The translations under genes were made by a program, and so were the position numbers. From NCBI GenBank assembly GCA_035540975.1, contig DATLFN010000127.1:1-33361 (forward strand): a stretch of DNA of 33,361 bases, read 5' to 3'. The notes beneath the pieces are model-generated. The model was not told the origin of the DNA and made no database searches. It saw only the letters and a list, made by a program, of their open reading frames with translations. The DNA comes from Acidimicrobiales bacterium. GTDB lineage: Bacteria > Actinomycetota > Acidimicrobiia > Acidimicrobiales > GCA-2861595. Of this stretch, positions 27,861 to 29,529 are shown piece by piece. Position 1 is the stretch's first letter; every line of letters starts with the position of its first letter.

Positions 27861-27878
27861 TGCCGGTCCACGATGGAG

Positions 27879-27970
27879 CGTCATCCAGAGCGGTCGAGGG
27901 ACCGGGCCCAGCGACACCGCGGCAACCAGCGGGCGACCCCCGCCAGGTGCCAATGCCCGGAACGATGAGG
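27879..27970 (+). promoter_or_regulatory. SAM riboswitch (SAM-I / S-box class) of the thrC-type gene
   Basis: The conserved core is present in order: AGAGCGGTCGAGGGACC (27887-27903, kink-turn side), GGGCCC (P2 loop), GCGGCAACC (27919-27927), a P3 hairpin GCGGG/CCCGC (27929-27943), AGGTGCCAAT (27945-27954) and GATGAGG (27964-27970). P1 is TCATC (27881-27885) with GATGA (27964-27968). P4, normally between CAAT and GATGAG, is reduced to a few bases, as in SAM-I/IV variants. The SD GAGGAGGG (27967-27974) overlaps the P1 3' strand, and the start codon is 8 nt away with no terminator between. Control must therefore act on translation. GATGG at 27872-27876 could pair with TCATC to release the SD. 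The expected effect of SAM is repression. Confidence 0.85.
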
Positions 27971-27978
27971 AGGGAACC

Positions 27979-29238
27979 GTGCCGTCGACGCCATCGGGAG
28001 GTCCGTTCGTCACGGGTCTGTCCTGCCGCGAGTGCGGGCGCCCGTACCCGGCCGAGGCGCTGCACGTGTGCGAGTACTGCTTCGGGCCGCTCGAGGTCGT
28101 GTACGACTACGACGCCGTGCGCGCCGCCGTCAGCCGGGAGCGCATCGCCGCCGGCCCCACGAACATCTGGCGCTACGCCCCCCTGCTGCCCGCCGAGGCG
28201 GCCGACCCGGTGGACCTGGGCGCCGGGTTCACGCCGCTGGTGCGGGCGGAGCGGCTGGCGGCCGAGCTGGGCCTGGGCGAGCTTTGGGTCAAGAACGACA
28301 CGCTGAACCCGACGGGCTCGTTCAAGGACCGGGTGGTCTCGGTGGCCCTCACCAAGGCCCGCGAGCTGGGCTTCAAGGTGGCGGCGTGCGCTTCCACCGG
28401 CAACCTGGCCAACTCCGTCGCCGCCCACGCCGCCCACGCCGGCATGGACTCCATCGTCTTCATCCCCCACGACCTCGAGCACGCCAAGGTCGTCACCACC
28501 GCCGTCTACGGCGGCCGGCTGGTCGCCGTCCAGGGCAACTACGACGACGTGAACCGCCTGTGCGCCGAGCTGGCGGGCCAGCACCCGACGTGGGCGTTCG
28601 TGAACGTCAACATCCGCACGTACTACGCCGAGGGGTCCAAGACCCTGGCGTTCGAGGTGGCCGAGCAGCTCGGGTGGCGGGCCCCGGACCACGTCGTCGT
28701 GCCCATCGCCTCCGGCAGCCAGCTCACCAAGGTGCACAAGGGTTTCGGCGAGCTCCACAAGGTCGGCCTCCTGGACGAGGAGCCCCACGTGCGGGTGTCG
28801 GGCGCCCAGGCCGCCGGCTGCTCGCCGGTGGCCACCGCCTTCGCCGACTCCTCCGACGTCATCCGCCCGCAGAAGCCGAGGACCATCGCCAAGTCGCTGG
28901 CCATCGGCAACCCGGCCGACGGGTGGTACGCCCTGGACGTGGTGCGCTCCTCCGGGGGCGCCATCGCCTCGGTCACCGACGAGGAGATCGTGGAGGGCAT
29001 CCGCCTCCTGGCCCGGACCGAGGGCATCTTCGCCGAGACGGCGGGCGGGGTCACCATCGCCACGCTGGCCAAGCTGGCCGCCCAGGGCGTCGTGCAGCCC
29101 GACGAGCGGGTGGTGGCGCTGGTCACCGGCCACGGCCTGAAGACCATCGACGCGGTGAGCCCCCACGTCGGCCCCACCGTGACCATCCCGCCGACCCTGG
29201 ACGCCTTCGCCGAGGCGCTGGACGCGGAGCAGTCGTAG
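27979..29238 (+). CDS. thrC: Threonine synthase family protein (ThrC type), SAM-riboswitch controlled
   Basis: This is a PLP enzyme of fold type II, 419 residues. An N-terminal zinc ribbon (Cys16, Cys19, Cys31, Cys34) comes first. The catalytic domain has NDTLNPTGSFKDRVVS with PLP lysine Lys116, ASTGNLANSVAAHAA, PIASGSQLTKVHKGF, SGAQAAGCSP, AIGNPADGW and ETAGGVTIATLAKL. Family function is O-phosphohomoserine to threonine. The SAM riboswitch upstream and the sulfur-carrier gene 12 nt downstream raise the alternative that this paralogue makes a homocysteine precursor by sulfur transfer (see findings). In Streptomyces a thrC-type gene and a MoaD-like gene also stand before groEL2. The start is GTG with SD GAGGAGGG. 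Confidence 0.88.
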   Translation: MPSTPSGGPFVTGLSCRECGRPYPAEALHVCEYCFGPLEVVYDYDAVRAAVSRERIAAGPTNIWRYAPLLPAEAADPVDLGAGFTPLVRAERLAAELGLGELWVKNDTLNPTGSFKDRVVSVALTKARELGFKVAACASTGNLANSVAAHAAHAGMDSIVFIPHDLEHAKVVTTAVYGGRLVAVQGNYDDVNRLCAELAGQHPTWAFVNVNIRTYYAEGSKTLAFEVAEQLGWRAPDHVVVPIASGSQLTKVHKGFGELHKVGLLDEEPHVRVSGAQAAGCSPVATAFADSSDVIRPQKPRTIAKSLAIGNPADGWYALDVVRSSGGAIASVTDEEIVEGIRLLARTEGIFAETAGGVTIATLAKLAAQGVVQPDERVVALVTGHGLKTIDAVSPHVGPTVTIPPTLDAFAEALDAEQS

Positions 29239-29250: not shown

Positions 29251-29529
29251 ATGAGCGTCACCGTGCGGATCCCCACCCAGCTGCGCACCCTCACCGGCGG
29301 GGCGGCCGACGTCGACCTCGACGGCGGGACCGTCGGCGAGGTCCTGGCCGCCCTCGACGCCGCCCACCCCGGCTTCGGCGAGCGCCTCTTCGACGGCGAC
29401 CGCAAGCTCCGCCGCTTCGTCAACGTGTTCGTCGCCGACGAGGACGTGCGGTTCCTCCAGGGGCTGGAGACGCCGGTGACGCCCGGCCAGACGGTCTCGA
29501 TCGTCCCCGCCGTGGCCGGCGGCGCCTGA
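29251..29529 (+). CDS. MoaD/ThiS-type sulfur carrier protein (CysO/HcyS-like), ends GGA
   Basis: This ubiquitin-fold sulfur carrier has 92 residues. It closely resembles mycobacterial CysO: VRIPTQLRTLTGG, GTVGEVLAALDAAHPG, LRRFVNVFVADEDVRF and the end VSIVPAVAGGA. Such proteins are adenylated at the C-terminal Gly-Gly and converted to a thiocarboxylate that donates sulfide. Here an extra Ala follows Gly-Gly, so the protein would need C-terminal trimming first, as HcyS of Wolinella does by the metalloprotease HcyD. No E1-like enzyme, JAMM protease or sulfurtransferase lies in the window. It is 12 nt after thrC and thus likely under the same riboswitch-controlled operon, although with its own translation start. 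Confidence 0.88.
   Translation: MSVTVRIPTQLRTLTGGAADVDLDGGTVGEVLAALDAAHPGFGERLFDGDRKLRRFVNVFVADEDVRFLQGLETPVTPGQTVSIVPAVAGGA

Follow-up and report, generated by a model that had tools for sequence, protein, structure and literature searches.

The locus raises the question of why a sulfur carrier gene should encode an alanine behind the Gly-Gly end that adenylation requires as the C terminus. The window, that is, the whole stretch of 33,361 nucleotides that was analyzed, is a complete contig of a 3.4-Mb genome of an Acidimicrobiales bacterium (97% complete, 171 contigs). The answer that we favor, with a probability of about 75%, is that the gene codes for a MetO precursor that would be trimmed by the protease Mec, then activated and used in the metM-metO pathway.

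The carrier gene and its capped end

Positions 29512 to 29529 read GTG GCC GGC GGC GCC TGA, that is, V-A-G-G-A-stop, in the frame of the ORF at 29251 to 29529 (Table 1). The 92-amino-acid product contains a beta-grasp domain of the ThiS family (PF02597, 57.6 bits with the Pfam profile), and its closest solved structures are 3DWG, which is CysO of Mycobacterium tuberculosis (E value, 1e-22), and 4N6E, a ThiS/MoaD-family protein. Gly-Gly is kept among the carrier orthologues, with one further residue encoded after it in the window gene, and this in-frame reading of a ThiS-family ORF confirms the masked Gly-Gly end (VAGGA) proposed in the preliminary description. The same description named orthologues ending in GG, with the Ala codon arising from a sequencing error, as the outcome that would speak against it. 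Most orthologues do end in GG, but a slip of one base in sequencing does not explain a codon that adds a whole triplet in frame.

Table 1. Features of the carrier operon in the window
Feature	Position	Strand	Evidence
SAM-I riboswitch aptamer (S-box leader), operon leader	27878..27971	+	Rfam RF00162, 60.2 bits (gathering 44.4)
metM-like PLP enzyme, predicted homocysteine synthase, threonine synthase by similarity	27979..29238	+	PALP 251 bits; TIGR00260 thrC 308 bits
Sulfur carrier precursor, metO-like, 92 aa, end PAVAGG-A	29251..29529	+	Pfam ThiS 57.6 bits; closest solved structures 3DWG, 4N6E
Gly-Gly codons, required C terminus for adenylation	29518..29523	+	Sequence; present in orthologues read to their end
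Extra Ala cap codon, just before the TGA stop	29524..29526	+	Sequence; not conserved in orthologues

A probable methionine operon under a SAM riboswitch

Between the riboswitch and the first start codon of a ThrC homologue (27979-29238) lie 7 bases, and the carrier ORF starts 12 bases after this homologue. A SAM-I riboswitch also precedes the metM homologues in 17 of the 20 loci searched from other genomes, and the pairing of the carrier gene with a ThrC homologue is seen across the phylum. The ThrC homologue of the window is the second of the genome, 41% identical to the other thrC (at G000:C6, away from the window), which directly follows a gene that we take, from our own reading of its sequence, to be a homoserine dehydrogenase. 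In work from 2024 by Hasebe et al., metO is reportedly located downstream of metM, with the MetO thiocarboxylate acting as the sulfur donor in the conversion of O-phosphohomoserine to homocysteine. As the window has a SAM riboswitch, a second ThrC homologue, and the same architecture as in Streptomyces, the pair is most likely metM-metO and the carrier MetO, the function of MetM being assigned by synteny, the riboswitch, and a secondary citation. This would correct the annotation "threonine synthase plus MoaD" to a methionine pathway in Acidimicrobiales.

The genome contains only one enzyme of the Cys_Met_Meta_PP family, and as its gene adjoins that of cystathionine beta-synthase (CBS), it is probably a cystathionine gamma-lyase rather than a homocysteine synthase. 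This neighborhood suggests that reverse transsulfuration is present and that a classical homocysteine synthase is absent.

The metM-metO pair was also found in Mariprofundaceae (Zetaproteobacteria; L336, L342, L349, and L362), where four of four carriers are tailed (C, R, NA, and CA).

Protease, E1 enzyme, and other carriers of the genome

A trimming protease of the JAMM or HcyD type had been predicted elsewhere in the genome, and a search for a MoeB/HcyF-like activating enzyme had been proposed; one of each was found. Exactly one protein matches Prok-JAB (G000:C8:42159-42503, 80.9 bits). This is Mec, coded directly upstream of a CysO paralogue (48% identical to the window carrier) and cysM. 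Its JAMM motif, HSHx7SxxD, is intact, with E22, HSH, S, and D aligned to PfJAMM1 (5LDA). The only E1 enzyme, at G000:C88, combines a rhodanese domain at its N terminus with a MoeB domain and scores above the PRK08762 cut-off. Five carriers are present, and the residues after GG are A in MetO, AGG in CysO, SR in MoaD (a separate protein, at G000:C5), AR in the SAMP2/TtuB-like carrier, and none in ThiS. The small SAMP2/TtuB-like carrier (L119, G000:C63) has the end ISGG-AR.

Tails in orthologues and other carriers

Tails are found in 20 of 78 metM-linked carriers, 54 of 87 mec/cysM-linked carriers, 21 of 30 MoaD proteins, and 1 of 17 ThiS-like proteins, although the difference between the metM-linked and ThiS groups is not significant (Fisher p 0.11). 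How often tails occur thus depends on which type of carrier is considered, and for any one gene the tail is not conserved. Within the family of the window, the metM-linked carriers end in A, I, I, none, and none; G002 and G004 have one extra codon at the same place, ATC (Ile), and G001 and G003 end in a bare GG. Thus, the alignment of orthologues proposed earlier (GG versus GGA) recovers an extra codon in some relatives but not a conserved Ala, and as most metM-linked orthologues (58/78) end in a bare GG, the Ala is dispensable. Among the 57 named metM-linked loci, 10 are tailed, Cys being the commonest residue.

The residue that follows Gly-Gly is far from random. Ala opens 34 of the 95 tails of MetO/CysO-like carriers, Ser 13, and Cys 12 (59/95 together), a large excess over the 13.7, 3.5, and 0.7 expected from the amino acid composition of the window's own genes; the tails, counted from one to three genes per genome and uncorrected for phylogeny, are not fully independent, although most families are represented by a single genome. 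The shortage of Pro is weaker (0 versus 4.4 expected, p 0.02; p 0.0002 against the remaining tails). This bias would fit a site of cleavage that is natively occupied by the cysteine of a CysO-Cys adduct, and together with the co-occurrence of carrier and JAMM protease described below, it makes the tails look like protease substrates. Within the phylum, capped carriers are thus frequent, and they obey a rule on the residue after GG (Ala/Cys/Ser, not Pro) by which a role of Mec as a general maturase becomes testable.

Stop codon loss was considered as the source of the tails and rejected: it fails for Ala (34/95), which is not one step from a stop codon, and for Cys, with 12 cases versus a single one among the 95 tails for Trp, which can be reached from a stop in one step.

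Co-occurrence of carriers and JAMM proteins

A Prok-JAB match was found in 266 of 395 genomes of the phylum. We picked two groups of 80 genomes from this list, spread over genera and with the JAMM-positive set taken from outside the order, and a MetO/CysO-like carrier is present in 70 of the 80 JAMM-positive but only 7 of the 80 JAMM-negative genomes (Fisher p 1e-25, uncorrected for ancestry). The co-occurrence partly reflects shared ancestry, and CysO recycling requires the JAMM as well, so trimming of MetO by Mec is not proved by it. The JAMM-negative genomes have 11 carriers, of which 3 are tailed, in two genomes whose assemblies may miss the JAMM; capped carriers with no JAMM detected are those of G224, where the contig ends 1.3 kb past the second carrier, and G014, which is 70% complete. 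As too few JAMM-negative genomes have the carrier, we make no claim on tails versus JAMM absence.

Fusions after Gly-Gly

In some genomes, what follows GG is a complete protein. In G096 (L241, G096:C157:1-3500), CysO runs in frame into CysM directly after GG, with mec upstream, although an assembly indel is possible, and in G126 (L251, G126:C1:138000-146500), a carrier is in frame with a MoeB-rhodanese E1 after GG. Such fusions should need cutting after GG to work. There is a precedent in MoaX of M. tuberculosis, which is cut between Gly82 and Ser83 by an unnamed protease (PMC4326299), and in 2006, JAB enzymes were predicted to release the C terminus of carriers in fusions, with a JAB listed alongside the Wolinella carrier (PMC1779556).

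Three loci (L254, L263, and L264) contain a MoaD joined after Gly-Gly to a membrane-like sequence of 280 to 370 amino acids; the extension in L254 has a weak CTP_transf_1 match just below the cut-off. These products, too, should need cutting after GG to work.

Proposed maturation and alternative readings

What we observe is the sequence, operon, riboswitch, set of enzymes, tail variation, and co-occurrence, and from these we infer every catalytic step that follows for the Acidimicrobiales bacterium. MetO would first exist in an inactive form in which a single residue, Ala, follows Gly-Gly, and Mec, the single JAMM protease of the genome, would remove this Ala. The single rhodanese-MoeB enzyme would then adenylate and thiocarboxylate the exposed glycine, and MetM would form homocysteine from the MetO thiocarboxylate and O-phosphohomoserine. 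As hydrolysis of a Gly-Gly-X amide is the same chemistry, Mec probably also frees the amino acid from carrier-amino-acid adducts, and with such a dual role, caps could be gained and lost at no cost.

The preliminary description saw in the tail a switch on carrier activity, which would mean that sulfur transfer is turned on or off through control of trimming. HcyS is reportedly inactive while it is capped. A carrier with a cap should in general stay inactive before cleavage, as reported for those of Streptomyces platensis (PMC6006322). However, the tail is not conserved in presence, residue, or length, the SAM riboswitch already serves the operon as a sensor, and the single mec gene is linked to cysO and not to metO. 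Constitutive trimming fits better than regulation, because the tail is mostly absent and variable in orthologues, so the claim of a switch is unsupported, and we regard it as highly improbable. The same variability, with most orthologues having no tail, would suit a neutral extra codon removed by an ordinary carboxypeptidase or some protease other than Mec. We nevertheless find this unlikely, given the strong bias to Ala, Cys, and Ser and the lack of any Pro after GG, the full-length domains after GG in some homologues, which an exopeptidase could hardly trim to a defined glycine, and the phenotype of the JAMM knockout in S. platensis (PMC6006322).

Two other readings concern the carrier itself. 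Instead of MetO, it could be a MoaD that serves molybdopterin synthesis, or else a protein modifier similar to SAMP, as its best NCBIfam match is SAMP1 (57.6 bits, cut-off 60) and MoaD2 of M. tuberculosis is CysO-like (PMC4326299). Yet both NCBIfam matches are below the cut-off, the genome has its separate MoaD, and the gene has, across the phylum, a ThrC homologue as its partner, together with a SAM riboswitch, which makes this assignment quite improbable. That the carrier stays untrimmed and inactive while the CysO paralogue takes over its role is hardly credible: the paralogue does exist, but the carrier has a conserved core, with 90% identity to G002 and G004, and belongs to an operon that is still intact, riboswitch included.

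Maturation of MetO by Mec could be one case of a wider rule. It is possible, at somewhat less than even odds, that in Actinomycetota the CysO, MetO, and MoaD carriers, but not ThiS, share Mec as their maturase and that the caps, encoded in the genes, mimic the carrier-cysteine adduct, which Mec already cleaves. If true, this would explain the Ala/Cys/Ser bias, the easy gain and loss of caps, and the carriers fused to CysM, MoeB, or a membrane protein.

Comparison with known systems

The combination of a capped carrier and a JAMM protease is known as a kind from the pairs QbsE/QbsD, HcyS/HcyD, and PtmS3/PtmS1; the case described here is new, but it is a further instance and not a new switch. 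HcyS of Wolinella succinogenes, which works with HcyD and HcyF, is a homocysteine carrier whose terminal Ala is removed by a metalloprotease; its partner is MetY, with O-acetylhomoserine, in a dedicated cluster. The window carrier shares the terminal Ala and, as predicted, the homocysteine role and Ala removal by a metalloprotease, and as it also lies in a homocysteine/methionine operon (SAM riboswitch), the analogy with HcyS drawn in the preliminary description is stronger than could be known from its vantage point. Unlike HcyS, the window carrier has a ThrC homologue as its partner, with the protease gene elsewhere, beside cysO. Clustering of the HcyS type with MetY, HcyD, and HcyF was not found, the protease and the E1 being on other contigs and the sole Cys_Met_Meta_PP gene beside CBS. 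The linkage of the W. succinogenes carrier to JAB and E1 has been listed (PMC1779556).

S. platensis has two carriers capped with MV or C (PtmS2/PtmS3, GG-MV and GG-C), one JAMM (PtmS1), and one E1, and deletion of the JAMM gene stopped the thiocarboxylate products made with the capped carriers (PMC6006322). In both cases, the capped carriers are actinobacterial and each genome has a single JAMM and a single MoeZ-type E1, the JAMM being required in S. platensis, but the PtmS system was shown for a natural product pathway, with no methionine link there (PMC6006322). In M. tuberculosis, Mec hydrolyzes the carrier-amino-acid adduct (PMC3227635), and CysO/CysM/Mec resembles the window system in the carrier fold (3DWG) and the PLP-dependent partner; however, CysO corresponds to the paralogue at G000:C8, while the window gene is linked to metM. 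In Streptomyces albulus, MetM is a homocysteine synthase with a SAM riboswitch upstream, and the carrier gene is metO (PMC12172450). This system shares with the window a ThrC-like PLP enzyme, a ThiS-like carrier, and a riboswitch upstream of metM, but most Streptomyces orthologues read end in a bare GG and a few in GG-Cys, while the window carrier has an Ala after Gly-Gly.
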